A DNA stretch of 64,000 nt from Gelidibacter mesophilus DSM 14095 (GTDB lineage: Bacteria > Bacteroidota > Bacteroidia > Flavobacteriales > Flavobacteriaceae): positions 1 through 64,000 of the forward strand of contig NZ_AUHD01000007.1 of assembly GCF_000423005.1 (NCBI RefSeq), in the 5' to 3' direction. The notes beneath the pieces were generated by a model that was given only the letters and a program-made list of their open reading frames with translations, was not told the DNA's origin and did no database searches. Shown one piece after another: positions 3,240 through 33,483 of the stretch; positions within the stretch are counted from its first letter, which is position 1; the number at the start of each line of letters is the position of its first letter. A program made the translations under genes and the position numbers.

Positions 3240-3242
3240 CCT

Positions 3243-3431: not shown

Positions 3432-3452
3432 TTAATCTTTAATTCTTTTATT

Positions 3453-6433: not shown

Positions 6434-6442
6434 TTTAAAATT

Positions 6443-8023: not shown

Positions 8024-8037
8024 AAATAATTTTTTAT

Positions 8038-8064
8038 AATTCGGGACGCACTGTGTCCCGAATT
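8038..8064. repeat. Perfect 10-bp hairpin after the coupling protein gene
   Basis: AATTCGGGAC (8038-8047) pairs perfectly with GTCCCGAATT (8055-8064) around a 7-bp loop, 14 bp past the coupling protein stop. No T run follows on the plus strand, so it may stabilise the mRNA end rather than terminate. It shares GGGAC/GTCCC with the hairpin at 4773. Confidence 0.6.
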
Positions 8065-8449: not shown

Positions 8450-8842
8450 TTAGTTAACTCCTTTCCAAAACCGAGAAAGTCTCTTGTTTTCAGTATAGAA
8501 CTCTACGAAAATTGCTAAATCATTATGTATGGTAAAAGCATTTCCAGCGACGTCGATGTAGTTGATAACGCGCTCTTTAAGTTTTGGATTTTTTTTTAGA
8601 AATATATTCCGTGATTAAAACAATTGGCTTATCGCTATTGTTTTTCATTTCTTCCAATCGAAATAAAATTAAATTAAATCCTGTTGAGATGTTATAATAT
8701 AAAACCTGGTTTCTACAGTGAATTTTGAATTGCTGATAGTTAAGTGAGAGTTTTCCTTTATGCTGTCCACGATTATTTGGATATTGACGAGCTCTTTTAA
8801 TTTGGAAGTAGCTTCGTAAATGATATCATTATTTCGATACAT
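8450..8842 (-). pseudogene. Frameshifted AbiEi-family antitoxin remnant
   Basis: Reading the minus strand from ATG 8840-8842 gives a helical start (MYRNNDIIYEATSKLKELVN), then a stop. One frame over, the text continues as LILFRLEEMKNNSDKPIVLI then TEYIS, and after a run of A the third frame gives KNPKLKERVINYIDVAGNAF. The sequence order, ending in INYIDVAGN, is characteristic of Bacteroidetes type IV toxin-antitoxin AbiEi-like proteins. At least two frameshifts, one at an A-tract, break it, and no nucleotidyltransferase toxin (AbiEii) gene is adjacent. It was probably a defence cargo gene of the element that has decayed. Confidence 0.65.
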
Positions 8843-8971
8843 AATCTGTGATGTTCATTTTTTTATATTGTTCAGTGGCAATGAACATTCAGATTTAATG
8901 AACATCTTGAAATATGCAAAGTGAATTTTGAAGAAATCAATGAATGAAATTCAGAGAGAAGATTCTATTAG

Positions 8972-9337
8972 TTAAAACGGCCCCTTATCCCTCGGCCCAT
9001 TATGCGTTACCTTCCATTGGCCATCTTCTTGAACCAGTTTAAATACACCTGGTTTTGGATCGTAAGCTGTAGAATATTTTATCCAAGCTACCTCGCCATC
9101 CATAGCTTCATCGACCACTTTAAAGTTAGTTTCTGAATTTTTATCTTCAGCAAACATTTCTTGAATGCTGGAAAGGTTTGCATATCCTTCCGCAGTGGTA
9201 TGTTTTTTTAAGTTAGCATCATTTCCATGATAAAAACTTTCGGCAACAACTTTGGCAGTTTCAGAAGGGGAAAGATTCTTGCTCTCTGAACACGAGAAGA
9301 ACAACAAAATGAGCGAGCAAATGACTAAATTTTTCAT
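8972..9337 (-). CDS. DUF4878-like lipoprotein
   Basis: 121 residues. A signal peptide with lipobox (LLFFSC, cysteine about residue 16) is followed by SPSETAKVVAESFYHGN and a C-terminal QEDGQWKVTHNG block, the pattern of NTF2-like DUF4878 lipoproteins. It is the last gene of the leftward tra operon, 7 bp after traN, so it is probably an envelope accessory of the conjugation machine. The exact role is unknown. Confidence 0.75.
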   Translation of the reverse strand: MKNLVICSLILLFFSCSESKNLSPSETAKVVAESFYHGNDANLKKHTTAEGYANLSSIQEMFAEDKNSETNFKVVDEAMDGEVAWIKYSTAYDPKPGVFKLVQEDGQWKVTHNGPRDKGPF

Positions 9338-9344
9338 AATCTTT

Positions 9345-10202
9345 CTAATTTGGGTTATTGATATTTCTATGTGATATTTTCAGTTCTATACTGCGTTCGC
9401 CATCTTTTTCATTCAATTCTAAAATTGCCCTACGGTCATTGGATAATGAAAATTTGGGCAACACATAAACGAACCTTACCGTTTCGCTTTCTGCAATTTT
9501 TGAGGGCAGATTATGTATGTAAATTGGCTCTTGATATAATCGTTGTAACGATTTTCTTTTTCCTTTCTGACGCGTTTCAATCGAAAGTTTTAAGAAATTT
9601 AAATCATAATCCAAAGTCGAATTATTCTTTATCTCGATGACGAAATAAAGTTCTTCCGTATCAAAAACAATGTTTTCGACGCTCAAAACAATACCTTCGG
9701 TTCGCTTTTTATTCCTACCAAATCGCTGCTTTCTTTCAATAAGGTAAGAACTGAATTTCTGGTAATAATAATTCCTGTTATCAATTTTACTTTCAGCAAT
9801 AGCAACCGAGATAGTATCGTTCATTATTGGTTTTTCATTCCCGATACTACTGGACTTCGGAATAAAATAATTGAATTTAGATAACTGCGCCTTATACCTT
9901 ACAATATACGAAAAAATTGAACCATCTCTATTGACTATCAGAAGATTGCTTTCTTTTCCTGGCTTTGCTTGAAGCAAACCGAAATACTGCTCTTTCTCAC
10001 GATTGTAAGTGAATATAAAATTGTCCGAACCGGTTATGCCTTGGCGAATGGGCTCTGGGAAAAACATCGCCACATTTTTAGTGTCATTTGCGTAGATGGT
10101 GTCTATAACTATTAGGTTTTGGGCCGAAACCTGTGCCATGCAAAGGTGGGGTGTGATAGTGGAAGCAACGGCAATAAATGAAGTTATGATATATCTTTTC
10201 AT
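9345..10202 (-). CDS. traN: Conjugative transposon protein TraN (VirB9-like)
   Basis: 285 residues, with a signal peptide ending near MAQ (residue 24). The domain resembles DUF4138/TraN of Bacteroidetes conjugative transposons: an N-terminal segment with NVAMFFPEPIRQGITGSDNF, a middle with VLSVENIVFDTEELYFVIEI and a strand-rich C-terminus. TraN is the outer-membrane-side component of the mating channel. It lies 31 bp downstream of traM in the leftward operon. Length and context both fit. Confidence 0.88.
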   Translation of the reverse strand: MKRYIITSFIAVASTITPHLCMAQVSAQNLIVIDTIYANDTKNVAMFFPEPIRQGITGSDNFIFTYNREKEQYFGLLQAKPGKESNLLIVNRDGSIFSYIVRYKAQLSKFNYFIPKSSSIGNEKPIMNDTISVAIAESKIDNRNYYYQKFSSYLIERKQRFGRNKKRTEGIVLSVENIVFDTEELYFVIEIKNNSTLDYDLNFLKLSIETRQKGKRKSLQRLYQEPIYIHNLPSKIAESETVRFVYVLPKFSLSNDRRAILELNEKDGERSIELKISHRNINNPN

Positions 10203-10233
10203 AAGATTGAATTTTTAAGAACCTTTAAGTGGC

Positions 10234-11163
10234 TCATAGTTTTGGTTTTAGAATAAGCTTATAATTGTTCAGCACGGTCACTTTTACGCTTTTGTTTTTA
10301 CGTTTTAGAATTTTAGTAATACCACCAACTTCCGGAACACTAGGAATGTTGATATCGCCAATAACATCGTCTAGGACTTCCGTTGTAATTTCTTCCCGAA
10401 AATTGTTTTCGACATAGATGCCCTCACTACCATCCTGCAAATCGAATGCTTTCAGTTTGGTAGGATGATGATTAATATTCTCAATTTCTATTAAAGCACG
10501 ATTGGGCTGAAAACTGATAAATCCAAAAACGAGTGTGTTTTTCTGCATTTCCTTATTGTTAATCATTGCAGCTTTGGTAAGTCGCATCCGCAATCGGGAG
10601 TTTGCTTTTACTACTTGGTCTCCATCGACGACCACATATATGGTTTCATCCGTATTCCCGATGATTGAAGAATCGTTTGGCTCGGGAGAAGCAGCAAAAA
10701 ATAATTGATGTTCCAGTCCCAATTCTTGGACTTCAATCTTCTGTGCTCGTCTTATTTCTGCGGAATCTACTTCTTTAACTTTTTTTGGAGCTGCTCTTTT
10801 TGAACCCATATTCTGATATGCCACTTCTGAATATCTGATTTTCCCTGCCGAATAGATACTATCTACGATACGTTCTTTTTCACGTTGAGGCAGATCTGCA
10901 TCATAAAAGCCGAGGGAATCAATCAATTTTTCATTGTAGATACTCGGCGCATTCGTTTCGCGCACTTCCTTAAGATCATTGATGGCATCCAGTTTGGTCT
11001 TATACTCTTTTTGATTTTCTTGCAAAGCTGGTATTTGGGTCTGTTTAAGATTTTCATTTTCACTTTCATCATCGCCCATAACCATGATGGTATAGGAAAT
11101 TAGAAACATTAAAATCACAGCCAATACGGCTGCAAAGACAATTTTATTCTTTTCTATTTTCAT
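10234..11163 (-). CDS. traM: Conjugative transposon protein TraM (VirB10-like)
   Basis: 309 residues from the ATG at 11161-11163; the frame extends nine codons upstream, but MKIEKNKIVF gives the standard short basic N-terminus. One transmembrane segment (residues 10-30) is followed by a charged linker (KQTQIPALQENQKEYKTK) and a C-terminal beta-rich domain, the layout of VirB10/TraM spanning the envelope. TraM links inner and outer parts of the channel. A GC-rich hairpin separates it from traK. Confidence 0.88.
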   Translation of the reverse strand: MKIEKNKIVFAAVLAVILMFLISYTIMVMGDDESENENLKQTQIPALQENQKEYKTKLDAINDLKEVRETNAPSIYNEKLIDSLGFYDADLPQREKERIVDSIYSAGKIRYSEVAYQNMGSKRAAPKKVKEVDSAEIRRAQKIEVQELGLEHQLFFAASPEPNDSSIIGNTDETIYVVVDGDQVVKANSRLRMRLTKAAMINNKEMQKNTLVFGFISFQPNRALIEIENINHHPTKLKAFDLQDGSEGIYVENNFREEITTEVLDDVIGDINIPSVPEVGGITKILKRKNKSVKVTVLNNYKLILKPKL

Positions 11164-11189
11164 GAGAGTTAATTTTAAAATGCCCATCA

Positions 11190-11212
11190 CCTGCCCGACG
11201 GTAGGCGGGTCG
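11190..11212. repeat. GC-rich palindrome between traK and traM
   Basis: CCTGCCCGACGGTAGGCGGG forms an imperfect hairpin in the 58-bp traK-traM spacer. A similar core (CCTGTCCGCCGAAGGAGG) lies inside the repeats at 56786 and 59964, and another at 60407, so it belongs to a family of short inserted palindromes. Confidence 0.6.
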
Positions 11213-11221
11213 GCTCGATTT

Positions 11222-11830
11222 TCATTGTTTAAATTTTTTTAAGGAGTTTTCAAAATAATTGGTTATCAATAATCCGTGCGGATTATTCGGGAAGTTTCGG
11301 TCAACCATACTCAGGTTTCCGGTGGAAACGAGTTCATAAGTGTCGATGATAGAACCACGATTGATTTTAAAAATAGTTATGGTTCTAAAGCTGTAAATCC
11401 CATTGTTTTCCTCGATTTGTGAATCGATGCTCAATACTTTTTGAACAAGGGAGAATTGTAATAATCGGTTATAGACCCCATCCGCTCTTTTTTGACGATA
11501 TAGGTTGTCCACTGAACTATTGCCCAGCCAAAGTGCTTTCGCAAGATTCTTTTCATAATTGCTTGCGTCAATATTGTAAAAGTAATTATGGAACAGTTCC
11601 AAGTGGGCCAAAGCTTCGACCCCGAAATTTTCTTTTTGGGTAACGAGCTTTAAAGGAATGATACTGCCATCAGTGTTTATAGCGAATGCACTATTTAAAG
11701 TTTTCTTATTAGTATTGAACACCATCCAGATCGAAAATGTACTGGTAAGCAAAGCGCAAACCACCACCGCCAAAACGATGAAACGATTTAATTTGAGGAC
11801 TGCATATATGTTTTTATAGGGTGTTTTCAT
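11222..11830 (-). CDS. traK: Conjugative transposon protein TraK (VirB8-like)
   Basis: 202 residues. It has a short cytoplasmic N-terminus (MKTPYKNIYAVLKLNRF), one transmembrane helix (residues 17-38) and a periplasmic NTF2-like domain ending KKFKQ, as in TraK/VirB8 proteins that nucleate the secretion channel. It sits between traJ and traM with a 10-bp gap to traJ, matching the order in Bacteroidetes conjugative transposons. Confidence 0.88.
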   Translation of the reverse strand: MKTPYKNIYAVLKLNRFIVLAVVVCALLTSTFSIWMVFNTNKKTLNSAFAINTDGSIIPLKLVTQKENFGVEALAHLELFHNYFYNIDASNYEKNLAKALWLGNSSVDNLYRQKRADGVYNRLLQFSLVQKVLSIDSQIEENNGIYSFRTITIFKINRGSIIDTYELVSTGNLSMVDRNFPNNPHGLLITNYFENSLKKFKQ

Positions 11831-11840
11831 GTCATTTATA

Positions 11841-12683
11841 TTAACCGTTAAATAGTCTTAAGGTGAAGGATGTTGCACGCCTGTAAAGCTTGAACTTTAG
11901 AAATACTATGAATCCAACGGAACCAAGTTGTACGACGGGGGCAAAGAATCCTTGTCCGAGGTCGGTTCCAAATAGATTATTCCAAAAGTTGGTGTTGAGT
12001 TCTGTATATAGTGCATTTACGAATATATTAACCAAAAAGAAGGCTGGCACGAGCATATAAACCGCAGCATATAATTTGAAAAAATTATAGGCCAATGATC
12101 GGAATTTTTCAAATACTGCTAAACTGATAACCAATGGAAAAAAGGCCTGCATAATCCCCAAAAGAAAGAACCGTTCTGCCAAAAAGAGTGGATAGATAAA
12201 TAGGTCCAAAAGCCATAGAATGATGCCAATGATAAAAGCAATTATTTTGAATCCATAAAGTGGTGTGACCAAAGCTTCGTAAAGCAGAGTCATCGCATTT
12301 TTTGCAGCATCCATTAGATTGACTTCTTCCTCAATGTGAATGTCTTGCATTTGCAAGGGCAAAAGTGCTGGAGCAGTCCCTCTATACTGCGCTTCTATTG
12401 ACACCAAGATGCTATCAAAAAAGCCCAATAGCTGTGTCGAGAATATGACCAAAAGAACTATGGCAAAATTCTTTGCCAGTTCGCCTGGGCTCAATCCCCA
12501 AGTGTAACCATCTTTGTCCGCAATACCTTCATTGTATTTTTTAAGAATGTTCACAAGGAAAAACAAAACCGCAAGCGTTTTCATTCCTGCAATGGTATAT
12601 TGCGAAAAGCTACTGTTTTGTATGGTTTGGAAAACCGTATCGATATATTCCAAGCCTATTCCTAAAATGATGGTTGCAGTCAT
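11841..12683 (-). CDS. traJ: Conjugative transposon protein TraJ (VirB6-like)
   Basis: 280 residues with about six hydrophobic segments (for example TLAVLFFLVNIL, FAIVLLVIF, IIAFIIGIILWLLDLF). This is the polytopic inner-membrane TraJ of Bacteroidetes elements, the counterpart of VirB6. It follows the TraI-like gene with one base between coding regions, suggesting coupled translation. Confidence 0.87.
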   Translation of the reverse strand: MTATIILGIGLEYIDTVFQTIQNSSFSQYTIAGMKTLAVLFFLVNILKKYNEGIADKDGYTWGLSPGELAKNFAIVLLVIFSTQLLGFFDSILVSIEAQYRGTAPALLPLQMQDIHIEEEVNLMDAAKNAMTLLYEALVTPLYGFKIIAFIIGIILWLLDLFIYPLFLAERFFLLGIMQAFFPLVISLAVFEKFRSLAYNFFKLYAAVYMLVPAFFLVNIFVNALYTELNTNFWNNLFGTDLGQGFFAPVVQLGSVGFIVFLKFKLYRRATSFTLRLFNG

Positions 12684-12684
12684 C

Positions 12685-13257
12685 TTAATATTCTGTTTCG
12701 CGGTTATTGATTTTATCCTGCATTTTTCTGAAGGAAATAATATCCTTGTAGCGTTTGGTTTTGGTTTTCACATTAGAAACCATTTCCTTGGATTCCAGTT
12801 CTTTTTCTTTTAAGATTCCAGTACGTTCGGCATCAGTCATTTTTAAGAAATCACTGGACAGAATATCATCTATAAAATCCATTGTATCCAAGGAGTTTTC
12901 TACAATGGCGCTAAACGATTCCGATACCCGACTTACTTCATCAGGTTTGATATAAGGGGAATCAAGAATATCCCTTAAGTCATTTTGCATCACGCGAATT
13001 AGACGTTGGTTATTTTGACCGATTTCCCGAACCGCATTTAGTTGTCTAACCACGTCATTTACCTTCTCAATATTTTCTTTAGCCTTTTTCATAAATTCAA
13101 CCGTTTTTATAATGTTTGCTGTCTGCTTCCCAGATTCTATCAGTTGTTTTACCAAGCTGATGAAATTGGTATTGTCATAAGTGGGCATTCCCTGAGCATT
13201 GATGTTCAAGCTGAATAAGAGTGCCATTGCGAGTACTATAAGTTTCGATTTACTCAT
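12685..13257 (-). CDS. traI: Conjugative transposon protein TraI (DUF4141)
   Basis: 190 residues from ATG 13255-13257; the longer frame would overlap the end of traG and hide the signal peptide. From the chosen start there is a clear signal sequence (LIVLAMALLFSLNINAQG). The mature part is a long coiled coil (FMKKAKENIEKVNDVVRQLN) with a conserved DILDSPYIKPDEV block, which fits the periplasmic DUF4141/TraI family (VirB5-like position). Confidence 0.82.
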   Translation of the reverse strand: MSKSKLIVLAMALLFSLNINAQGMPTYDNTNFISLVKQLIESGKQTANIIKTVEFMKKAKENIEKVNDVVRQLNAVREIGQNNQRLIRVMQNDLRDILDSPYIKPDEVSRVSESFSAIVENSLDTMDFIDDILSSDFLKMTDAERTGILKEKELESKEMVSNVKTKTKRYKDIISFRKMQDKINNRETEY

Positions 13258-13303
13258 AGTTAAAAATCTGTTTTGGTATTCGTGAACCTTTGGTATCATA
13301 ATA

Positions 13304-15706
13304 TTATTTTTTAGAAGTGAATTCAATAATTGCTTTTTCCATATTCTGATGTTGCTCATAGAGCTTCATTATTTCTTCATTTTCCTTTCCATCTGTCAGG
13401 TAAGCGGCATACACTTCCTTTGGTACCTCGAGACGGAAAATGTTACTTTCCTTACCGATTTTTATAAACATTTCCGTGTATTTGCGTGGCCCGGAAAGAT
13501 TGTTCTTGATAGATTTTAATTGGTTGAGATCATGGGTGGAAAGATTGAGACGCTTGACCAATTCTGCATAACCTTTTTCATTATGGAGACTGTAGAACAC
13601 CTGTGTGTTTTCAAGGATGCTCGCCGATGTTGAATTGTTTGGAAGCTGGTTTATGGATTGCAGAACGATTCCGATGGCACCGTTCTGCTTTCGGATCGCT
13701 TGATAATAGAATTCTACACTTTCCAATACGTTCTCAAACTTCAGTTGCTTAGCAAACTCGTCGAAAAGGATGATGCCTTTTTCGGCTCGGTTCTTCCAGA
13801 TTGTCCGTTGAATGGCTGACTTAATCAGCTTCAACATAACGGACAGGATTTCTTTGTTGTCCTTTACTTCATCCAGTTCAAAAACAATTAAACGCTTGTC
13901 CTCGATTTTATAGGTCTGGTCTTCGCTGACTTCAAACAGAAAACTATAGAGACCATCGCCAACATACTCCGACATGACGTGCAAGAAGCTAGTAACATTG
14001 AAGTAGTCAGGATGGATTTTAAGTTGATTTAAGAGGTCTTTTTGATTGCTCTCTATAAAGTGGTAGAAGCCATCCAAAGAGTGATTTTCAGGCGTGCTAT
14101 CGTAATAATGGCGTAGAATCTTTTTTACCGAAACGGATTGTGCCTTGGTCACTTTTAAATCTGAAGCAAACAATTCAAATAGGAATACGGATAAGTCCTC
14201 CAATCGTTCAGGTGTCAGGTCGTTCGTATCACTTATGTAAAATGGATTGATACCGAGATTCTTTCCACTTTCGTATCGAAGCACAGTATATTGTTCAGGA
14301 TAAAGCTTAGCGAATTTGGTATAAGAACCACCCAAGTCGATAATGACCAGACGAACGCCACTTTCAAAATATTGGCGCAAAATGTTATTTGCCAGAAAGG
14401 ATTTGCCTTCGCCAGTTGGAGCGAAAATGGCAAAGTTCCGTGCCTTGATGCGTTTCTTACGTTCATCCCAAACATCTTTCAAGACAGGAATGTTGTGTTC
14501 TCGGTCGTTAAAAATGATTCCTGTAGGATCCGATTTATAATTGGTGTTATTGATAAACAGGCAAAGCGCGTGTTTCAAATCCGTCACATACATATCGGTA
14601 TTGCTGAAATTGGAAGAGAAACAGCAATAACTGTTCAGTATATAGTTCTTTCGTTCCTCTCCTCGTGGATAGTATGGGATGATATCCAATTCCTTGAATT
14701 CAGTCTTGATTTTAGAACCAATCCGAGCTAAATTTTCTGCATTTTTATCCCAATAAATGATATTGAGATGGCCACGGATAATTCTTGAATTATCGTCGGC
14801 ATTAATCTGGTCAAGGATATGCTGAATTTTGCCAAGAACAACTTTGTTCTGTGAACCGAAATTTGAACTTTTATTAAGTTCCTCGACCTTCTTGTCAAGC
14901 AGCTTGCGCCACTTTTGTTTATCGTCCAAATAGATAATCTGGTTGACAATATGGTTTTCGTTAAGCGTAAGCCCTAAACCATCAATAAACCCTTGATGAA
15001 ACACAAAATCGTCAGAAGTGAATTTCTCATTGGTCTTGCTACTCTGTACACTTTCGCCAAAGCACAGTTCACTATTGATGGCAAGGGCATCAAAATAGTT
15101 TTCGCCTATAGTGACGCTTTTCTTATCCAATAAAATATCGGTGTCAAATCCTTCATTGAATCCATTGAAATATGAATTCGTTAACTCTTGGATATGTTTT
15201 GCTTCAAGGGGGATAAGTTCAATCTTCCGACTATTATTGATAAAGGAAACGGAATCGCTGACCGACCCGATGAAGCTCTTTACGTTATCGTCTAATTTTT
15301 GAACGATATCCTTGACCACCTTTCGGAGAGGATTGACATATTTTGGGTTGTTCAATGCTTTGTTCTTGGTAAGTATAAAGAACAAATAGCAACGGTGTTC
15401 CATATATTCACGCCCTTTAAAATGGTCGTGCGTAGCCTTTTCCAGAAAGGTAGAATTAGGCAATTGATCGGACGTGTAGGATTTCTTTATATAGATATCC
15501 TGTTTGTGAACGACCGTTCCAACAGACAACGATTTTAACGCCTGAAACCATGCACCGTGCAAATCCTCAAAATCCTTTTCCGATAGGGAGTAGATTTCAG
15601 GTAATATCCCCTCATAGCACAAGACCACGTTGCCATTATTGGCAAAAATGATATTGTCCTGAATATCCGCAATCGGACGATATGCTGAAAGGTTAATCTT
15701 GTTCAT
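13304..15706 (-). CDS. traG: Conjugation ATPase TraG (VirB4-like)
   Basis: 800 residues, the usual size. The N-terminal TraG domain begins NKINLSAYRPIADIQDN. The ATPase domain has Walker A FAPTGEGKSFL (about residues 429-439) and Walker B KGIILFDEFAK (about 655-665), with the conserved QNGAIGIVLQSINQ segment after it. It energises assembly of the mating channel. Its start overlaps traF by 14 bp, indicating translational coupling. No break is seen. Confidence 0.94.
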   Translation of the reverse strand: MNKINLSAYRPIADIQDNIIFANNGNVVLCYEGILPEIYSLSEKDFEDLHGAWFQALKSLSVGTVVHKQDIYIKKSYTSDQLPNSTFLEKATHDHFKGREYMEHRCYLFFILTKNKALNNPKYVNPLRKVVKDIVQKLDDNVKSFIGSVSDSVSFINNSRKIELIPLEAKHIQELTNSYFNGFNEGFDTDILLDKKSVTIGENYFDALAINSELCFGESVQSSKTNEKFTSDDFVFHQGFIDGLGLTLNENHIVNQIIYLDDKQKWRKLLDKKVEELNKSSNFGSQNKVVLGKIQHILDQINADDNSRIIRGHLNIIYWDKNAENLARIGSKIKTEFKELDIIPYYPRGEERKNYILNSYCCFSSNFSNTDMYVTDLKHALCLFINNTNYKSDPTGIIFNDREHNIPVLKDVWDERKKRIKARNFAIFAPTGEGKSFLANNILRQYFESGVRLVIIDLGGSYTKFAKLYPEQYTVLRYESGKNLGINPFYISDTNDLTPERLEDLSVFLFELFASDLKVTKAQSVSVKKILRHYYDSTPENHSLDGFYHFIESNQKDLLNQLKIHPDYFNVTSFLHVMSEYVGDGLYSFLFEVSEDQTYKIEDKRLIVFELDEVKDNKEILSVMLKLIKSAIQRTIWKNRAEKGIILFDEFAKQLKFENVLESVEFYYQAIRKQNGAIGIVLQSINQLPNNSTSASILENTQVFYSLHNEKGYAELVKRLNLSTHDLNQLKSIKNNLSGPRKYTEMFIKIGKESNIFRLEVPKEVYAAYLTDGKENEEIMKLYEQHQNMEKAIIEFTSKK

Positions 15707-25897: not shown

Positions 25898-26584
25898 ATG
25901 AAAAAGGTTTTATGGATAGTAAGTGTGATGTTGTGGTCGTGCGGAGGCAGTTCTGATGATGCTCCACCGCCCGAGAAGAGTAATGATGCTCCTACAATCC
26001 CGGCATTGTTTTATCCAACAAATAATTTGTTATGCACAGACTCCACAGTGAGTTTTAGTTGGGAGGCCGCTCGTGATGCAAACAATGATCCTATAGAATA
26101 TATGCTCCAGGTAGCTACCGATAATCAGTTCGGCACCCTTGATTTCAGTGCTAAAACTACCACAACTTCACACGCATTTAAGCTAAAGAAGGGGGTTTTC
26201 TATTATTGGAGAGTAAAGGCTTCAGACGATAAAAATGCGTCCAGTAATTTTTCGCCAGTGTTTAGTTTTTATACCCAGGGTGAAGCGGTTTCAAATCACT
26301 TGCCATTTTCACCGCAATTGGTGTCGCCTATTTTAAACGCTAAAATAGATGATCAGCTTATTGACCTCAAATGGTCAGCTAATGATGTTGATAATGACCC
26401 GTTACGTTTTGATGTCTATTTTGGAACTGATAATCCGCCTATGCTTTTAGTGGGTCACAATCAACCTTCACCACAAATACAGGTGCAGGTTACATCTAAA
26501 AGCAAGTATTATTGGTATGATGTCGTTAAAGATAATCGGGGTGGTGTAACCTTCGGACAAATATGGAATTTTGATGTCAATTGA
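25898..26584 (+). CDS. Lipoprotein with two fibronectin-III-like domains
   Basis: 228 residues with a lipobox (MLWSCGGSSDD, cysteine about 15). Two related beta domains follow: one around TVSFSWEAARDANNDPIEY and YYWRVKASDD, the second around LIDLKWSANDVDNDPLRF and YYWYDVVKDN. These W and YYW positions are typical of fibronectin type III folds. Two bases separate it from the giant protein gene, so it is co-transcribed and may anchor or partner that protein. Confidence 0.82.
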   Translation: MKKVLWIVSVMLWSCGGSSDDAPPPEKSNDAPTIPALFYPTNNLLCTDSTVSFSWEAARDANNDPIEYMLQVATDNQFGTLDFSAKTTTTSHAFKLKKGVFYYWRVKASDDKNASSNFSPVFSFYTQGEAVSNHLPFSPQLVSPILNAKIDDQLIDLKWSANDVDNDPLRFDVYFGTDNPPMLLVGHNQPSPQIQVQVTSKSKYYWYDVVKDNRGGVTFGQIWNFDVN

Positions 26585-26705
26585 GCACGTAACTCTACGC
26601 TTAAAAGTGGGTGTTTGAAATGGCAAAAGTCTTTTCTCTGTGCAACATTATATTTTTTACAGAACTATAAACATGTTTTAATGTTTCCAAATCTCGATTT
26701 ATAGG

Positions 26706-26812
26706 GTCGGGAAGGGGTAATGCCAGAGTAATTTAGTAGTCTGATGAAAGCTTTTCGTTTCTGTTTTTAACAGAATCGAGAAGCTTTTTTGTTTTGGGAT
26801 GGTTTGTGGATT
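26706..26812 (+). repeat. Direct repeat copy 2, with strong terminator
   Basis: Second copy of the 20681 repeat. The hairpin arms AAGCTTTTCGTTTCTGTT (26748-26765) and AACAGAATCGAGAAGCTT (26769-26786) pair with two mismatches and are followed by TTTTTG, a strong terminator for the giant-protein operon. Together the copies bracket that operon. Confidence 0.75.
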
Positions 26813-26955
26813 CTTTAAAAATCATCACAGATTGAGACGGTGTTCGAGGTTCTTAATTTTTGAAATAAAATCTAGTCATTTTAATTTTTTAACAGGAAGA
26901 TTGTTACTTTTATTTCCATTTCATCGAATTTATATTACACTTTACGGATGAAAAT

Positions 26956-26985
26956 TTTGTTAGTGACTTTATTATAATATATTTG
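26956..26985 (+). promoter_or_regulatory. Bacteroidetes-type promoter of the peptide leader
   Basis: TTTG at 26956-26959 and TATATTTG at 26978-26985 (fits TAnnTTTG) are 18 bp apart, close to the known sigma-A consensus of Bacteroidetes. Transcription would start near 26992, leaving about 205 nt of leader before the peptide gene. Confidence 0.65.
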
Positions 26986-26991
26986 TAGTTC

Positions 26992-27196
26992 TTAAATGAG
27001 CCCCTAACGACTTATTCAAGAACATTTTAGTCCATTTTATACTAGACAAAGTTGCATGTCTCCTCTTCCCTCGACGTTTTATGCAACGTTGGGCCGCTAT
27101 GCCTAAAAATTAATTATCCATTCTTCCCTCGAATGGCATTTTTATGCCCAATTATTAATTAACTAAATAGTATATAACCCCTAAAATTGAATTAAA
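26992..27196 (+). promoter_or_regulatory. Structured 5' leader with a duplicated TCTTCCCTCGA motif
   Basis: TCTTCCCTCGA occurs at 27064-27074 and again at 27122-27132. In the second copy it sits in the loop of CCATTC/GAATGG; in the first it lies within the loop closed by GTTGCAT (27051-27057) and ATGCAAC (27081-27087). A further hairpin GGCAT/ATGCC follows at about 27134-27148. Two similar hairpins presenting the same loop motif suggest a regulatory RNA, by binding a protein, an sRNA or a ligand. I know no riboswitch class that fits. Confidence 0.45.
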
Positions 27197-27376
27197 ATGA
27201 AGACCCTAAAAATTACTCTATTACTTGCATTATTCTTAATGGTATCTAGCCAAACGTACAAAGCGAACACGAGTCTTGAAGCGGCAAAAAAAGCTGATGT
27301 TCAAGAAACAACCAAAACGTATTATGATTTGTTAGCGCATACTAGAGATAAAGTTGTGCTTCCTACCCAAGGATAA
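27197..27376 (+). CDS. Small secreted peptide, 59 residues
   Basis: ATG 27197 to TAA 27374-27376. A clear signal peptide (MKTLKITLLLALFLMVSSQT) is followed by a short polar mature part containing AAKKADVQETTKTYYDLLAH and ending VVLPTQG. It has its own promoter, long leader and terminator. No family is recognised. Its position directly upstream of a sensor kinase with an exported TPR domain makes a signal or ligand role attractive but untested. Confidence 0.7.
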   Translation: MKTLKITLLLALFLMVSSQTYKANTSLEAAKKADVQETTKTYYDLLAHTRDKVVLPTQG

Positions 27377-27396
27377 GCCTCTTTTGGAAATTTAAA

Positions 27397-27426
27397 AAGC
27401 TCTTATTTTGATTAATAAGAGCTTTA
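27397..27426 (+). terminator. Terminator after the small peptide
   Basis: AAGCTCTTATT (27397-27407) and AATAAGAGCTT (27414-27424) pair perfectly. The T tail is short, so termination may be partial and allow some readthrough into the kinase gene 100 bp on. Confidence 0.75.
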
Positions 27427-27529
27427 CTTGTTTATGGATATAAGACTTTTTTTTAAATCGTACTTAATTTCGATTAAATTCAGTGTTTCAAATAATTATT
27501 CTAAATTTAAAATTTAATAATTCATTTCA

Positions 27530-29560
27530 GTGCTAAGAATCCTCTGTTTTCTAATCTTTTTCTATCTTTCCGTTCCCCAATGTGCTGCTCAAGACCTTCT
27601 TGAATCTGCTAAATATGACAGTATTTTAAAACTTAGAAATCAAGGGAGGGACAAAACCACATCTTTGGATGAACGTTACAAATATGCTCAAAAGGCTGTT
27701 GAACTTTCAAAAGAATTAAACGTTGATAGTATTATTTTAAGAAGTAATAGAGTTTTATCAACCGTATATTTATATCAAGGAGATTATGAAAAATTCAGTA
27801 AGATCAATCATAAAAACTTAGAGATTTCCAAAATAATACATGATACTCTCGTTATTGGAATTGCCAATCATAACCTGGGTTTTTACCACTCAACCCAGAC
27901 TCAAAATGACAGTGCCTACTATTATTATAGAAAGGCCATTAAGAGCTATGATCAAGTTGGGGAAATTTCGAGAAAAATAGAGGTTATGTCTAATCTTTCC
28001 TTAATTCAATATATTGAAAGAGATTATTTTGGAAGTGAAGAAATGTGTATTAGGGCGCTCAGGCTCATAGAAGATTCTCCTTCCTACAAAGAAAACTTGC
28101 CGATGCTCTGGATCCTTAATAATAGACTTGGTAATATCTCATCTGATTTGGGCCAATACGAAACATCTCTTGAATACCATGAGAAAGCCATAAGCATCAG
28201 CAATAGGATGAAAAATGGCCGATCAGATTATTATACCTCCATCAATAACAAAGCCTATGTTTTAAGGAAACAAGGGCATTACACTAGGGCGATTCAATTG
28301 TATAATGAGATTTTAGCTCAAAAGGAACTGTTTATTGAAGATCCTAGTTTTTATCCGTTGATTCTTGAAAACCTCGCATTTACAAAATTTGAGTCCGAAG
28401 ACAAGGATTCTGCTGCAATAGAAAACATGCTAAAAGAGGCTTACCGGCTGAGTGATAGTTTAGAGGACCCTATGACGAAGTTGGCAGTTACCATTGATTT
28501 GTCGAAATTTTATAAGAGTCAAAATAAAATTGACGATGCCATTACTTACGCACAAGAATCCTATCAATTGGCAACTTATCTTTCTTCAAATGATATTTTA
28601 CTGGAATCGATGGTGCTTCTTTCTGAACTCAATTCAGGAGAGACCGGAAAAGCCTATTTGAAAGATTACATCAATTTAAGTGATAGTCTTCTGGCACATG
28701 AGCGCGGAATCAGGAATAAATTTGCACGTATTGAATTTGAGACGGATCAAATCGAATTGGAAAATGAACGCATTGCTACAGAAAAAATGTGGTGGAACAT
28801 AAGTTCTATTGTTCTCCTCTTAACGTCTATCTTGGTTTATATCATCATTACGCAACGGAATAAAAATAAGGAATTGGAATTTAAACAAGATCAGCAGGCA
28901 GCCAATGAAGAGATCTATAATTTAATGTTGTCACAGCAAGATAAAGTTGACGGAGCTAGGGCAGAGGAGAAAAGAAGTATCTCACAGGAGTTACATGACG
29001 GGGTGTTGGGACGACTTTTTGGGACACGGTTGAGTTTGGATAGCTATAATTTAGTTGAAGGACAAGAAGCAGTGCAAATAAGATCAAAATATATTACAGA
29101 ACTTAAAACCATAGAACATGATATTCGGAAAATCTCCCATGAATTGGATACCGACTTTGTGGCAGGTTCAGGGTTTATGGATATCTTGATAGAGATGGTG
29201 GAGCAGCAGACCGAAGCCTATCAACTGGACTATGATTTTAATTATACGGACGATATCTATTGGGAATCAGTTTCTAATAAAACTAAAATCAACATCTATA
29301 GAGTGGTACAGGAATCGCTTCAGAATATTTATAAACACGCCAAAGCAAAAACGGTTAATATTAGTTTCCAACTAAAAAAATCGGTAATTTGCTTGTCTAT
29401 TAGTGATGACGGAATTGGCTTTGATCCTGATAAGAGCAAAAAGGGAATTGGCCTCAAAAACATCAATTCGAGAATTAAAGAACTAAATGGTTCGGTAGCA
29501 TTTGATTCACAAGTTAATCAAGGCACCACCATAAAAATAAAAATCCCCTATACAATCTAA
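27530..29560 (+). CDS. TPR sensor histidine kinase (HisKA_3 / NarX-like)
   Basis: 676 residues with a GTG start and signal peptide to about residue 21 (CAAQ). Residues 30-400 are tetratricopeptide repeats (GIANHNLGFYH, INNKAYVLRKQGHYTRAIQL). One transmembrane helix (about 420-442) and a coiled coil follow. The phosphoacceptor lies in EEKRSISQELHDGVLGRLFG, and the ATPase domain has NIYKHAKAK and SDDGIGFDPDKSKKGIGLKN. The TPR part is thus outside the inner membrane, the kinase inside. It is co-transcribed with the response regulator 6 bp downstream. The ligand is unknown; the upstream peptide is a candidate. Confidence 0.93.
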   Translation: MLRILCFLIFFYLSVPQCAAQDLLESAKYDSILKLRNQGRDKTTSLDERYKYAQKAVELSKELNVDSIILRSNRVLSTVYLYQGDYEKFSKINHKNLEISKIIHDTLVIGIANHNLGFYHSTQTQNDSAYYYYRKAIKSYDQVGEISRKIEVMSNLSLIQYIERDYFGSEEMCIRALRLIEDSPSYKENLPMLWILNNRLGNISSDLGQYETSLEYHEKAISISNRMKNGRSDYYTSINNKAYVLRKQGHYTRAIQLYNEILAQKELFIEDPSFYPLILENLAFTKFESEDKDSAAIENMLKEAYRLSDSLEDPMTKLAVTIDLSKFYKSQNKIDDAITYAQESYQLATYLSSNDILLESMVLLSELNSGETGKAYLKDYINLSDSLLAHERGIRNKFARIEFETDQIELENERIATEKMWWNISSIVLLLTSILVYIIITQRNKNKELEFKQDQQAANEEIYNLMLSQQDKVDGARAEEKRSISQELHDGVLGRLFGTRLSLDSYNLVEGQEAVQIRSKYITELKTIEHDIRKISHELDTDFVAGSGFMDILIEMVEQQTEAYQLDYDFNYTDDIYWESVSNKTKINIYRVVQESLQNIYKHAKAKTVNISFQLKKSVICLSISDDGIGFDPDKSKKGIGLKNINSRIKELNGSVAFDSQVNQGTTIKIKIPYTI

Positions 29561-29566
29561 AAGTTT

Positions 29567-30235
29567 ATGCAAAACATTCATATTTTAATGGTAGATGATC
29601 ATCCTATTATTATTGAAGGTTACCAAAATACCCTGATGGCCACCAAAAAGGAAAATCAGACACTACAAATAGAGACGGCAAATGATTGTGATACCGCAAA
29701 TGAATTATTACAGCGTGCCGCTAAGGAAAAACCATTTGATATCTGTTTTTTTGATATCAGTCTTCCGGGATCTTCTAATGGTAAATTGACCTCAGGAGAA
29801 GATTTGGCAAAGATGACGCGAGATATCATGCCCAATGCCAAAATAGTTATCTTGACCATGTTTAACGAATCTTTTAGGGTGCATAATATTATCAAGGAAA
29901 TTAATCCGGACGGTTTTTTGATCAAAAGCGATATGACCTCCAGTGAGCTTGCAGAAGCCTTTCAGCATATTTTATCTTCACCACCATATTACAGTAGCAC
30001 GGTAAGCAATTTTTTAAAGAAATCAGTCACGGCCGATATTTATGTGGATGATATTAATCGGAAGATCCTCCATCTTTTATCGCAAGGAATTCGTACCATT
30101 ACCCTAAGAGAGCATATTAATCTTTCTATGAGTGCTATTGAAAAGCGCAAGAAACAACTGAAGCTGTTGTTCTCAGTAAATGATGGAAAAGATGAAACTC
30201 TCATTGAGGAAGCTCGGAAAAAAGGGTTTTTGTAA
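29567..30235 (+). CDS. LuxR/NarL-type response regulator
   Basis: 222 residues. The receiver domain has acidic residues in LMVDDHP, the phosphorylated aspartate D63 in CFFDISLPG, and the conserved T in IVILTMF. The C-terminal HTH is divergent (ILHLLSQGIRTITLREHINL, then MSAIEKRKKQL), but its spacing fits a LuxR domain. It is the partner of the kinase just upstream. A perfect palindrome about 100 bp downstream may be its binding site. Confidence 0.92.
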   Translation: MQNIHILMVDDHPIIIEGYQNTLMATKKENQTLQIETANDCDTANELLQRAAKEKPFDICFFDISLPGSSNGKLTSGEDLAKMTRDIMPNAKIVILTMFNESFRVHNIIKEINPDGFLIKSDMTSSELAEAFQHILSSPPYYSSTVSNFLKKSVTADIYVDDINRKILHLLSQGIRTITLREHINLSMSAIEKRKKQLKLLFSVNDGKDETLIEEARKKGFL

Positions 30236-30337
30236 CTGTTTATCAATGAAACTGGCAAATCTTCACTTTTGTTTGAGTTTTAAACGTGCAACAAAGCCAT
30301 GCTACTGCTAGAAACTACGGTTTTGCCACAGCAAGTC

Positions 30338-30352
30338 TACGGTAATACCGTA
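30338..30352. promoter_or_regulatory. Perfect palindromic operator before the candidate small RNA
   Basis: TACGGTA-A-TACCGTA has perfect 7-bp arms. Its centre is about 34 bp upstream of the -7-like box at 30375, the place for an activator site. Symmetric sites of this size suit LuxR-type dimers. Confidence 0.55.
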
Positions 30353-30374
30353 ATTTAATATCATATCCGTTTTC

Positions 30375-30490
30375 TATATTTGGCAGGTCAACAACAATTA
30401 ATTAATCCCTCTAAAATGTTTGTTGAATTAATAGCAAAAAAGCACAAACCTAATAACTGACCTTCTGGAAAGTTATTAGGTTTTATTTAT
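30375..30490 (+). ncRNA. Candidate small RNA downstream of the response regulator
   Basis: TATATTTG (30375-30382) matches the Bacteroidetes -7 element. A strong terminator ends it: ACCTAATAACT (30448-30458) pairs with AGTTATTAGGT (30471-30481), then a T-rich tail. The predicted transcript of about 95-100 nt holds only a 14-codon frame (30417-30461, starting MFVELIAK). With the palindrome just upstream it looks like an independently regulated RNA or micro-peptide controlled by the neighbouring two-component system. Confidence 0.5.
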
Positions 30491-30703
30491 TTATAATAGC
30501 GAGTGATTGAGTTCTATTTAAAAACTTCAGTTTGTTTCTCAGTTTTTTGGCTGGTTTATTTCTTTATCCAATTTCCCATGACAGGACATCAAAACAAAAA
30601 GTTCGAAGCTATTAAAATATTTCGTTTTAAGCCATTTCTTAATAATTCCACAGGTGTCTGATGGTCAATTGTGTTCAATTTCAACAAAATCTTTTAAAAT
30701 TTT
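30491..30703. other. Intergenic stretch before the BlaI operator
   Basis: No frame with family features on either strand, and no clear hairpins. Probably spacer between the small RNA and the blaI promoter. Confidence 0.5.
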
Positions 30704-30741
30704 GTAACTAATAATTTAGTTTTAACTAAAATTTTAGTTAC
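30704..30741. promoter_or_regulatory. Large BlaI-type operator
   Basis: Two 18-bp arms (30704-30721 and 30724-30741) beginning GTAACTAA are inverted copies with 16 of 18 matches and a 2-bp gap. Within each arm TTAGTT/AACTAA repeats the half-site idea, so two repressor dimers could bind. A TACATTGG box (-7-like) overlaps the right edge, so occupancy would block the promoter of the downstream repressor gene. Confidence 0.75.
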
Positions 30742-30842
30742 ATTGGCGTCGTACAGTTAGCGGATTATGGATTTTTAATTTCCTTATTCCTGATAAAATT
30801 TAAGATTAACTCAAAAGACAGCTGCCTTCGCAGGACCTTATT

Positions 30843-31205
30843 ATGAAACAACTTACAAAAGCAGAAGAAGAGATTATGCAAGTGTTATGGCAATTGCAAA
30901 AAGCAAGCGTTAAAGCCATTATTGCAGAGTTACCAAAACCGAAACCTGCCTACAATACCGTTTCTACCATTGTTCGGATTTTGGAAAGCAAAGGCTTTGT
31001 AGATTATGAAAAACAGGGGAAAGGCCATTTGTACTTTCCTTTGATGGCAAAGACGGATTACAGCAACCAAAGCATCAATATGCTGGTGGATAATTATTTT
31101 CAGGGTTCGTTTAAGAGTATGGTTTCCTTTTTTGTCAAGAAGAATGACCTAAACTTAAAAGAAATGGAGTCTATTTTAAAGGAAATTAATAAAAAAGAAG
31201 ATTGA
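30843..31205 (+). CDS. BlaI/MecI-type transcriptional repressor
   Basis: 120 residues. The winged-helix core (LTKAEEEIMQVLWQL, AYNTVSTIVRILESKGFVDY) and dimerisation tail are those of the BlaI/MecI family. These repressors leave DNA when the partner BlaR1-like membrane peptidase is activated. The gene is one base upstream of that partner and downstream of a large matching operator, so the pair is probably autoregulated. There is no beta-lactamase gene next to it, so the stimulus may be different. Confidence 0.92.
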   Translation: MKQLTKAEEEIMQVLWQLQKASVKAIIAELPKPKPAYNTVSTIVRILESKGFVDYEKQGKGHLYFPLMAKTDYSNQSINMLVDNYFQGSFKSMVSFFVKKNDLNLKEMESILKEINKKED

Positions 31206-31206
31206 T

Positions 31207-33483
31207 ATGTTACACTATATTCTACAAACTATCGCATTTCAGGTGTTCTTTTTGATCATTTATGATGCCTTTCTGAAAAAAGAAACCTTCTTTAATTGGA
31301 ATCGCGCTTATTTAATCGGTACTGCATTTTTGTCGTTTACGTTGCCATTTCTGAAATTTGAAAGCATAAAGGCTATTGTTCCAGAACCTATGATTGTCAG
31401 ACTTCCGGAAGTTATTATTGGCGAGGTGTCACCAACGTTTGATACCAATATTATGGTAATGGGCGCTGAGCAAGTTTCGGAACAAGCCATCACCTTTTCT
31501 TGGACTTATGTTTGGCTTGCTGGGATGGTGTTGGCAGCAGGTATTTTAGTTTATAAAATCGTAAAGATTGTGCGCATGCTCTATAAAAATCCACGGCGCT
31601 GGCAGGGTGATGCTCTATTTGTGTTTTTATTGAACAGCAGCGCGGCCTTCTCTTTTTTCCATTATATTTTTTTGGGGATTGATATTCAAGCTGAAAAGAA
31701 AGAGCATATCATACAGCACGAAATGGTACATGTCAAAGAAAAGCACAGTCTGGATTTATTGATCTTCGAAATATTGAGAATTGTATTTTGGTTCAATCCG
31801 CTTATTTATATGTATCAGAATAGATTGGCAAATTTGCACGAGTTCATCGCCGATGCTAAAGCCGTCAAATACAAAGGCAAATCAGCCTATTTTCAAAGTT
31901 TGCTGTCCCAAGTTTTTGAGACGCAGCACATCTCATTCATCAATCCATTTTTCAAACAATCATTAATCAAAAAACGAATCGTCATGTTAAGCAAATCAAA
32001 ATCAAAACAAATCCATCTCATTAAATATGCCTTATTGGTCCCTATGGTTATGGGCATGTTGATGTACACCTCGTCTTATGCGGGTGAAATTAAAGATCCT
32101 TTTCCAATCTTTCAGAAGGAATCTAAAACTCAAGAATTGACCTTTCAGGAACTTGTGGACAAATATTACAATGAGATATTAGAAATGATGTCAACTGAAA
32201 AAGGTGTCGCTGAAGTATTCAAAAAGTATACTCAAAAAACGGATAACTATATCGACAGCAAAGAAAATGTTGCCAAAAATCAGGCTTTTATGAATTACAT
32301 GTATAAAGCTATGAAGGATCGAAAGATAGCTGAAGGTGAATTTAAGGAAGATGATGATGAGAGGTATAAACGAATTACAAATAACTACAAGACGTATGAA
32401 GACTATCTGGCCTACAAAAAGACTGATTTAGCTAAAAAAAGTTGGGAAGAACTTGCGTCAATTGGTGAGAAGCGTTTGGTTGTTGATGATATGGGAAATT
32501 TGACCGAAGCTGAAAAAAAACGTAAAGCAGAACTATTGACTCTGGTTGAAAAAGATGATTTTTATAACAAACTTAACATGACCGATGGGAAATCCAATAT
32601 ATCGGTAGATTTTACTAAAAAAGATAAAGATAGGAAAAAAGATGATTTTGAAGCTTATGATATTGAAGTCCCTTTCGCAGTGGTAGACGAAGTACCTATA
32701 TTTACAGGTTGCGAAGATTTTAATTCAAATAAAGAGCGCAAACAATGTATGTCTGATAAGGTGTCAATGTTTGTCAATAAAAACTTCAATGTCGACATCG
32801 CTAAAGAACATAATCTTAAAGGAAAGCAGCGCATCAGTGTTATCTTTAAATTGGGCAAGGACGGAAAGATTAGAGAGATCAAAGCGAGAGCACCACATCT
32901 AGCCTTAGAGGAGGAAGCGATTAGGGTAATACAACTATTACCTGAATTCACGCCAGGAAAACAAAAAGGGAAAGCCGTTACGGTGCCTTATAGTTTACCT
33001 ATCCTGTTTATGGTGCAAGATGATAGTGTCGAAAGTGAAAAAACGGATAATAAAATTACAGGTAACGCTGATAACATCGTAGAAAATGTTGAGCTCCGAG
33101 AACAAAATATGGATGAAAATATCGAAGTTCCTTTTGCCGTAATTGAAGAAGCGCCAACGTTTCCATCTTGCGAAGAGTTTGGTTCAAGAGATAGTCGTAG
33201 GACCTGTACTTCTGATTATATAAGTCAATTTGTCAATAAAAATTTCGATGTGAAATTGGCAAAGAAATTGGGGCTAGAAGGAAAGCAACGTATGATGGTG
33301 ATCTTTAAAATTGGTACCGATGGCACGATTTCAAACATTAGAGCAAGAGCACCGCATCCTGAATTAGAAAAAGAAGCCATTCGAGTGATTGGCATGTTGC
33401 CAAAAATGCTTCCTGGCAAGCAACGTGGTAAAGCAGTAATCGTGCCTTACAGTCTTCCTATTCTTTTTAACGTCCAAAAATAG
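31207..33483 (+). CDS. BlaR1-like M56 peptidase with two C-terminal TonB-type domains
   Basis: 758 residues. Four transmembrane helices surround the M56 zinc site IIQHEMVHVKEKHS (about 168-181) and the later NLHEFIADAKA. After a final helix (about 278-296) is a charged periplasmic linker, then two paralogous TonB C-terminal-like domains (about 485-605 and 640-758), each running from EVPFAV through VNKNF to VPYSLPILF. Bacteroidetes BlaR1-like proteins often carry one such domain; two is unusual. It presumably senses an envelope signal and cleaves BlaI. Confidence 0.9.
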   Translation: MLHYILQTIAFQVFFLIIYDAFLKKETFFNWNRAYLIGTAFLSFTLPFLKFESIKAIVPEPMIVRLPEVIIGEVSPTFDTNIMVMGAEQVSEQAITFSWTYVWLAGMVLAAGILVYKIVKIVRMLYKNPRRWQGDALFVFLLNSSAAFSFFHYIFLGIDIQAEKKEHIIQHEMVHVKEKHSLDLLIFEILRIVFWFNPLIYMYQNRLANLHEFIADAKAVKYKGKSAYFQSLLSQVFETQHISFINPFFKQSLIKKRIVMLSKSKSKQIHLIKYALLVPMVMGMLMYTSSYAGEIKDPFPIFQKESKTQELTFQELVDKYYNEILEMMSTEKGVAEVFKKYTQKTDNYIDSKENVAKNQAFMNYMYKAMKDRKIAEGEFKEDDDERYKRITNNYKTYEDYLAYKKTDLAKKSWEELASIGEKRLVVDDMGNLTEAEKKRKAELLTLVEKDDFYNKLNMTDGKSNISVDFTKKDKDRKKDDFEAYDIEVPFAVVDEVPIFTGCEDFNSNKERKQCMSDKVSMFVNKNFNVDIAKEHNLKGKQRISVIFKLGKDGKIREIKARAPHLALEEEAIRVIQLLPEFTPGKQKGKAVTVPYSLPILFMVQDDSVESEKTDNKITGNADNIVENVELREQNMDENIEVPFAVIEEAPTFPSCEEFGSRDSRRTCTSDYISQFVNKNFDVKLAKKLGLEGKQRMMVIFKIGTDGTISNIRARAPHPELEKEAIRVIGMLPKMLPGKQRGKAVIVPYSLPILFNVQK

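Follow-up and report, generated by a model that had tools for sequence, protein, structure and literature searches.

A conserved peptide, TPR sensor kinase, response regulator and small RNA locus of Flavobacteriaceae, probably a pherotype-like signalling system

Contig NZ_AUHD01000007.1 of Gelidibacter mesophilus DSM 14095 (Flavobacteriaceae) carries within its positions 1–64,000 (64,000 nt, the whole stretch analysed, hereafter the window) a locus which on the + strand consists of a promoter-like element, a leader of ~205 nt, a small peptide gene, a hairpin, a sensor kinase gene with tetratricopeptide repeats (TPR), a response regulator (RR) gene, two palindromes, a TATATTTG element and a small RNA (sRNA). 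An original prediction, made from the sequence, had joined such parts into one signalling unit, and its 59-aa open reading frame (ORF), TPR kinase, RR, palindrome and terminated RNA were all found where it had placed them. Comparison with relatives confirmed that the locus is real and conserved in Flavobacteriaceae; the interpretation as a linked unit is supported, the functional link between the parts being one that we infer from sequence.

The peptide gene is preceded by a likely -7 element (TATATTTG, 26978–26985, + strand), read from the sequence and conserved in the genus, with a start site at ~26992; it fits TAnnTTTG, which we take to be the Bacteroidota promoter type. The leader of its mRNA (26992–27196, + strand) contains two copies of UCUUCCCUCGA (27064–27074 and 27122–27132). 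The promoter-like element and the long leader predicted originally are present, but for the structure ascribed to the leader no consensus over its whole length was found (0 pairs by RNAalifold); the element common to the species is a repeated UCCCUC motif. The precursor itself (27197–27376, + strand, 59 aa) has a conserved signal beginning MKTLKIT and a variable C-terminus ending in DLLAHTRDKVVLPTQG, and its gene is followed by a terminator-like hairpin (27396–27425, + strand). The predicted secretion of the peptide is supported by its conserved signal-like start and by a simple rule of our own for export (a short hydrophobic core after lysines or, in distant members, a lipoprotein-type cysteine), but not by a 19-residue hydropathy scan, which leaves it unflagged. 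Nine different peptides were compared with Pfam and NCBIfam without any match at a family cut-off; the best ones below it are to lipoprotein families (E-values 0.0012 and 0.0013) over the signal region.

The kinase (27530–29560, + strand, GTG start, 676 aa) is composed of a signal (residues 1–20), a TPR sensor (21–419), a transmembrane helix (420–443), an H-box with His489 and a HATPase domain (587–675), with Pfam matches to TPR_12 (2.9e-18) and HATPase_c (6.9e-13). Membrane helices were assigned by the 19-residue scan, in which only residues 1–20 and 420–443 exceed the cut-off. Given a signal-like N-terminus and this single further hydrophobic stretch, the TPR part should be extracytoplasmic, in agreement with its predicted position outside the membrane. 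An AlphaFold model of residues 21–424 is an all-helical TPR superhelix (mean pLDDT 91.7). Its best solved matches by Foldseek are LGN/Pins TPR domains (TM-score ~0.6), several with Inscuteable, NuMA or Frmpd4, and Rap receptors rank 45th (with Phr peptide) and 49th, below eukaryotic and designed TPR proteins. Since TPR superhelices resemble one another, these matches indicate the fold and not the ligand. The RR (29567–30235, + strand) possesses a receiver domain (Response_reg, 1.5e-10) with DD, D63 and K120 present, and a C-terminal part resembling LuxR/NarL-type regulators, for which full-length matches lie below cut-off only.

Behind the RR gene are two tandem palindromes, TACGGTTTTGCCACA (30316–30330) and TACGGTAATACCGTA (30338–30352), spaced 22 bp and both predicted RR sites. 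The perfect palindrome noted originally is the second of these, so the palindrome stood and its being a single site did not. TACGGTAATACCGTA has a single exact copy in the genome, and its count of near-matches was reached in none of 100 shuffles of the window. A likely -7 element (TATATTTG, 30375–30382, + strand) follows, and then the sRNA (~30386–30488, + strand), which is ~100 nt long and terminated. In its first hairpin 30388–30394 pairs with 30420–30426 around the loop AAUUAAUUAAUCCCUC (30396–30411), and this is followed by a linker UUAAUAGCA (30428–30436) and a covarying terminator (30446–30483). A coding reading of the sRNA was rejected, as the 14-aa ORF in the window is not kept in 17 aligned relatives.

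Conservation was followed in two sets, the first being RR orthologs (61–92% identity) from 18 relatives and the second the best 80 of 357 relatives, from named genomes of Gelidibacter, Psychroserpens, Winogradskyella, Mangrovimonas and others, with 11 of the 80 named loci being the same places as in the first set. In all 18 relatives the kinase is present and is preceded by a small ORF (46–79 aa) with the start MKxLKIT or similar, and the sRNA can be seen in each of the 17 with a continuing contig. Among the named loci the kinase is present in 80/80, as is the sRNA by an sRNA model that was itself built with 19 of these 80 loci. A peptide was identified in 79/80, namely 76 by a strict pattern and three (L111, L112 and L139) by eye, while L122 sits at a contig end. 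With a rule that uses no pattern (a signal-like ORF of 40–89 aa, at most 400 nt upstream of a gene), such an ORF was found before 76 of 80 kinase genes, the figures for other genes being 4 of 426 in these loci and 0 of 36 in the window; of the four loci missed (L108, L118, L122 and L129), three have a peptide found by the pattern. The keeping of the peptide gene beside orthologous kinases had been chosen beforehand as a point on which the prediction could fall; it held, and in a lipoprotein version it extends to 13 of 15 more distant loci, described below.

The sRNA is conserved in a particular manner: the loop of its first hairpin is almost invariant, the linker is invariant, and the terminator comes after. 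TAnnTTT[GA] lies upstream of it in 79 of 80 loci, a count made without a chance control. A scan of 199 family genomes with the sRNA model gave 28 matches in 27 genomes, all 28 behind an RR ortholog on the same strand; the gap to the RR is 90–172 nt, with one second copy at 713 nt. The model misses some diverged copies which are visible by eye, for example in G068 and G112. Four minus-strand matches (E-values 0.013–0.093) were excluded from the covariation count by a stricter cut-off. In the alignment fitted to the model, and so leaning towards it, 95.8% of cells pair and 250 cells have two-sided changes versus 69 in shuffled and 26–46 in slid controls; from an unfitted alignment RNAalifold recovered the terminator, with two-sided changes in 7 of 11 pairs, but missed the first hairpin. 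Locus L112 (6730–7470) has three tandem sRNA genes, each with a palindrome pair and a terminator, some sites having TGG for CGG. Against the 4227 models of Rfam, positions 26500–31000 of the window gave only sub-threshold matches (E-values 0.31 and 0.34), neither at the sRNA and with no family for the leader, and at gathering score nothing was found at the sRNA of L088 or L112.

The tandem palindromes belong to the same association. When 120 family genomes were scanned with the tandem pattern (at most 2 mismatches), it gave 14 matches, all 14 just behind the RR, and the reversed control listed none. In 75 of 76 loci the single-site pattern is found among the 170 nt that follow the RR. The sRNA, the tandem palindromes and the RR gene therefore stay together, as this comparison of genomes shows, and most likely the palindromes are RR binding sites at the sRNA promoter, a link that the separate palindrome pairs of the three L112 copies also support. 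The RR has a wider distribution than the sRNA, being found in 120 of 199 family genomes at an E-value of 1e-40, paralogs included.

Further targets of the RR may exist in Gelidibacter. A loose tandem pattern marked 21 distinct places in nine Gelidibacter genomes, and its backward control gave 7 matches in total. These places include the sRNA promoter in eight of the nine genomes, five clearly palindromic sites before lipoprotein genes (L153–L157, in genomes G002, G003, G004, G006 and G007) and eight that look like chance. After the L153 site (region 889–3000) comes a protein with an AHH-type nuclease domain (PF14412), after another of the extra sites one with a weak, below-cut-off SprT-like match, and yet another precedes a DUF5004 lipoprotein. 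By eye, the sites of L153 and L154 (region 2011–3500) would fit the strict pattern, and the strict search of 120 genomes was run without G002–G008, from which the possibility of additional targets follows. In the window's own genome the loose pattern shows no second tandem site. Sites before lipoprotein and nuclease genes would fit control of competition between bacteria, a lead only, given how few they are.

The leader of the peptide mRNA and the sRNA have a motif in common. At least two copies of [TA]CCCTC are found in 69 of 76 leaders, compared with a shuffled mean of 0.07 per leader and none of 334 control genes with two, and TTAAT(n0–3)TCC occurs in 70 of 76 peptide leaders and in 69 of 80 regions after the RR. 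A longer bipartite form of the leader motif is present once per genome, in the peptide leader, in the nine Gelidibacter genomes, and its reversed control gives 0–3 per genome. In the sRNA loop UCCCUC is found in 60 of 80 loci, UCCCU minus the final C in 18 and neither in two. The simplest reading is that sRNA and peptide mRNA may compete for a common partner, protein or RNA. There is also a small leader hairpin (27118–27136, + strand, loop UUCCCUC) around the second UCCCUC with a T-rich stretch after it, a terminator-like arrangement which could allow attenuation there. Before the peptide promoter (~26920–26952 in the window) relatives have a repeated ATCGATAAAA/TTTTATCG element with a spacing of ~20–21 bp; as it differs from the RR palindrome, another regulator probably controls the peptide gene.

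Over the 79 loci of the co-variation test (L122 excluded), the peptide signal is conserved and the C-terminal end hypervariable, and the conservation of the kinase in 40-column blocks is 0.39–0.59 over the sensor and 0.65–0.84 from residue ~360 on. In partial Mantel tests the peptide C-terminus follows the sensor when catalytic domain and RR are corrected for (r 0.45, p 0.0005, which is the floor with 2000 permutations), whereas it does not follow the catalytic domain when the correction is for sensor and RR (r 0.04, p 0.27). There are 33 pairs of loci with catalytic domains at least 93% identical, and their sensor identity extends from 0.33 to 0.92. In these pairs, which have loci in common and hence are not independent, a higher sensor identity goes with a higher identity of the peptide C-terminus (Spearman 0.49, p 0.004) and, less strongly, of the peptide signal (0.36, p 0.04), whereas catalytic domain and peptide end are not correlated (0.07). 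Loci L135 and L147 are an example, with identities of 0.99 for the catalytic domain, 0.98 for the RR, 0.36 for the sensor and 0.30 for the peptide end.

A pair of Psychroserpens loci (L088/L090) has identical RRs (1.00), near-identical catalytic domains (0.98) and a sensor identity of 0.49; its two peptides agree over their first 34 residues and have different C-termini. Their DNA identity is mostly 0.92–0.98 in the upstream flank (two windows at 0.80–0.82), drops from 0.94 to 0.60 inside the peptide gene, remains at 0.42–0.63 across most of the sensor, rises to 0.73 and 0.81 towards the membrane helix and is 0.88–1.00 thereafter. Sensor and peptide C-terminus are exchanged here as one block, a pattern which would be expected of peptide-signalling specificity cassettes. 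The pairs L107/L109 and L088/L093 are similar with a lower background, and no such exchange is seen in L124/L138 and L098/L099, pairs with similar peptide ends. Two further peptide genes deserve mention. The peptide of L049 (2100–2339) has three TGGGVDERD copies at its C-terminus with TEATTF between them, like a precursor with repeated mature units, and in L150 the gene is duplicated (3476 and 3683), the copies being distinguished by a single residue.

From the association of the genes, the co-variation and block exchange of peptide end and sensor, the association of tandem sites, sRNA and RR, and the common motif, all of which are seen by comparison, the locus is probably a pherotype-like peptide/receptor two-component system with an sRNA output, similar in its working to agr and of a different build. 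The small ORF would give an exported precursor, in which the conserved N-terminus serves for export (as a lipoprotein signal in distant members) and the hypervariable last 15–20 residues act as the ligand. The kinase would read this ligand with its extracytoplasmic TPR superhelix and pass the signal through the one transmembrane helix to its core and on to the RR. The latter may then bind the two palindromes 22 bp apart and switch its dedicated sRNA of ~100 nt, together with a few lipoprotein genes in some Gelidibacter. The UUAAU..UCC / UCCCU(C) motif of the sRNA, being related to the duplicated one of the leader, may allow the sRNA to feed back on the peptide by competing for a partner. Direct binding, release to neighbours, the sign of regulation and feedback are all parts of this scheme that we infer.

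The agr system of staphylococci is composed of AgrD, AgrC, AgrA and RNAIII, and systems of the ComD/ComX type are pherotype systems. The locus is like these in having a variable peptide predicted to be exported, a sensor kinase which diversifies with it and has a conserved catalytic half, an RR and a putative regulatory RNA as output. As in other two-component peptide-pheromone systems, the gene of an exported peptide (export being judged by the simple rule) lies beside the kinase and the RR, and peptide and sensor diversify together with the kinase core conserved. Unlike the polytopic membrane domain of the AgrC type, the sensor here is an extracytoplasmic TPR superhelix with one transmembrane helix; the RNA is ~100 nt and non-coding, the host is a Gram-negative member of the Bacteroidota, and no AgrB-like protease ORF occurs between peptide and kinase in the window and the 18 relatives, the rest of the genome not having been searched. 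In the GacS/GacA-RsmX/Y/Z system the RR acts through palindromes at sRNA promoters, and GGA motifs in exposed loops of the sRNAs titrate CsrA. Our locus likewise has what appear to be RR-type palindromes at an sRNA promoter and an sRNA that is sometimes multiplied (L112). It differs in that the conserved exposed motif is AAUUAAUUAAUCCCU(C) and not GGA, in the position of the sRNA beside the RR gene and in the presence of a peptide gene; a conserved GGA is absent from the sRNA and by eye GGA is seen only in some terminator loops.

A short exported peptide encoded beside a TPR receptor is also a feature of the RRNPP systems (Rap, NprR, PlcR, PrgX, Rgg), although RRNPP receptors are cytoplasmic, have no transmembrane helix and regulate DNA or protein directly, and here the TPR part is exported and fused to a histidine kinase with a signal and a transmembrane helix. 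One study describes the RRNPP receptors of Firmicutes as intracellular, its screen having covered Firmicutes genomes only (PMC10075063). The FimS-FimR system of Porphyromonas gingivalis is comparable in its kinase, for which another paper describes a periplasmic TPR sensor and states the signal to be unknown (PMC11053733). The window kinase, however, is far below the cut-off of the NCBIfam FimS model NF053520 (32.2 bits versus a curated 600), and no convincing peptide neighbour is seen beside FimS-like kinases. Eighteen loci of FimS-like TPR kinases, none of them over the family cut-off, were found in 247 genomes of the class. The test on these was rough, as ATG starts only were considered, and in several loci, among them L238, L242, L246 and L248, the chosen start seems to lie inside the gene. 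A single filter match beside such a kinase (L239) was rejected, being within the preceding gene. The peptide therefore seems to be a trait of this kinase lineage and not of TPR kinases generally.

Paralogs provide a more distant view. Of 22 listed RR paralogs with 31–45% identity, 20 were taken and five of these, which lacked a TPR-kinase match, were dropped, leaving 15 loci. Directly upstream of the TPR kinase, 13 of the 15 have a lipoprotein-like ORF of ~50–79 aa, many with acidic tails such as PDNDKD; no peptide is present at L056 and L057, and L065 and L070 belong to another family of the same order.

Several observations weigh against a peptide that diversifies as a signal between cells and is tied to an sRNA output. 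The peptide end adjoins the sensor and one exchange moves both, so that co-variation alone is no proof of contact. No preference for the concave TPR helices is seen among the sensor positions that are coupled to the peptide (the top 25 include 5 on A helices and 10 on B, p 0.93). The signal part of the peptide follows the sensor too, if more weakly than the C-terminus does (partial r 0.22, p 0.0005), and the pair L120/L135 breaks the rule with a sensor identity of 0.33 and a peptide end identity of 0.60. The 500 nt ahead of the peptide gene contain the single-site pattern in 0 of 76 loci, which argues against direct transcriptional autoinduction; with predicted RR sites at the sRNA and none before the peptide, the sRNA promoter is the most likely target of the RR, which would then have no direct action on the peptide gene. 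The distant peptides are lipoproteins, for which release is not required, and no convincing peptide neighbour was found in the 17 analysable of the 18 FimS-like loci. On the RNA side, the 18 of 80 loops without the final C mean that the motif common to the leader is not exact throughout, and the two-sided changes fall in 12 pairs, 10 of them in the terminator (of 13) and two in the nearly invariant first hairpin (of 7). Pairing of the sRNA with leader, kinase or RR mRNA was no better than shuffled when every second locus was taken (37–38 loci). The perfect 12-nt complement GGGATTAATTAA is found in its own genome only at the sRNA itself; in three of eight other Gelidibacter genomes it has four other places, and the linker complement TTTGCTATTAAY has scattered matches, its control likewise giving many.

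Some of these points would suit a peptide that assists the kinase of its own cell from within the periplasm, as an autocrine tuner or inhibitor which never acts between cells, in the way of CpxP and other small modulators of sensor kinases. The lipoproteins of distant members could stay tethered, neither an exporter nor a processing protease lies between peptide and kinase in the window and the 18 relatives, and the peptide promoter lacks an RR site. It is hard to see, however, why an internal tuner should undergo an allele-like block exchange of peptide C-terminus and sensor between near-identical loci, and we regard this explanation as possible and clearly the less probable one. It is unlikely that the kinase senses some other diversifying ligand with the peptide gene hitch-hiking in the recombination block. 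Peptide C-terminus and sensor are adjacent and moved by one exchange, and FimS-like TPR kinases show no convincing peptide beside them, but the exchange boundary is inside the peptide gene, between conserved signal and variable end, and a passenger should sometimes be lost, whereas peptide and kinase are still together at 79 of 80 named loci and 13 of 15 paralogous ones.

Slightly less likely again is an antimicrobial peptide for which kinase, RR and sRNA provide self-sensing or an immunity response. Its small size, hypervariability and export would agree with this, as would the five Gelidibacter tandem sites before lipoprotein genes, one of them then followed by the AHH-nuclease protein, and the match of one distant peptide to a precursor family of ribosomally synthesised and post-translationally modified peptides, which is sub-threshold (E-value 0.078, 13.7 bits versus a cut-off of 40). 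Against it, the unit has no immunity, modification or export genes and the nine tested peptides all fall below Pfam and NCBIfam cut-offs. That the RNA is just the end of the RR transcript with its terminator, which lies ~250 nt past the RR stop and has most of the covariation, is very improbable in view of the tandem palindromes and promoter-like element just upstream, the invariant letters of loop and linker outside the terminator, and the three tandem copies of L112, each with palindromes and terminator.

As to the surroundings of the locus, positions 5402–15706 of the window have conjugation genes on both strands (DUF5712, a type IV secretion system coupling protein and a TraG P-loop ATPase) and are probably part of an integrated conjugative element, and at 30843–33483 a BlaI-type repressor precedes an M56 (BlaR1-like) protein that has two TonB C-terminal domains.

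Most known cases of peptide quorum sensing are from Gram-positive bacteria. When the main text of a quorum-sensing review of 2026 was searched for words beginning Bacteroid-, Flavobacter- or Porphyromonas, there were none (PMC13220807), and in the available part of another source Bacteroidetes are mentioned only for autoinducer-2 and gut ecology (PMC7876071). No description of such a system in Bacteroidota was found in a literature search of titles and abstract openings, with preprints and most subscription papers outside its reach. The unit described here, compact and repeatedly re-tuned in marine flavobacteria, looks like a quorum-sensing-type system. On balance, and by a narrow lead over its being otherwise, we favour the fuller view of a Bacteroidota peptide-pheromone system in which exported TPR kinases make up a class of receptors for self-peptides that diversify, pherotypes switch repeatedly, and one dedicated sRNA, carrying a motif of the pheromone mRNA, is the main RR output. 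If this is true, the locus would provide Bacteroidota with a self-recognition system having natural pherotypes, a new receptor architecture and a new sRNA family, and the paralogous kinase loci with lipoprotein peptides would extend it to a large family in Flavobacteriales. A direct and cheap test would be possible with synthetic C-terminal peptides on an sRNA-promoter reporter. It would also offer a class of ligand to try on other periplasmic TPR kinases such as FimS, though FimS-like kinases lack an adjacent peptide gene.

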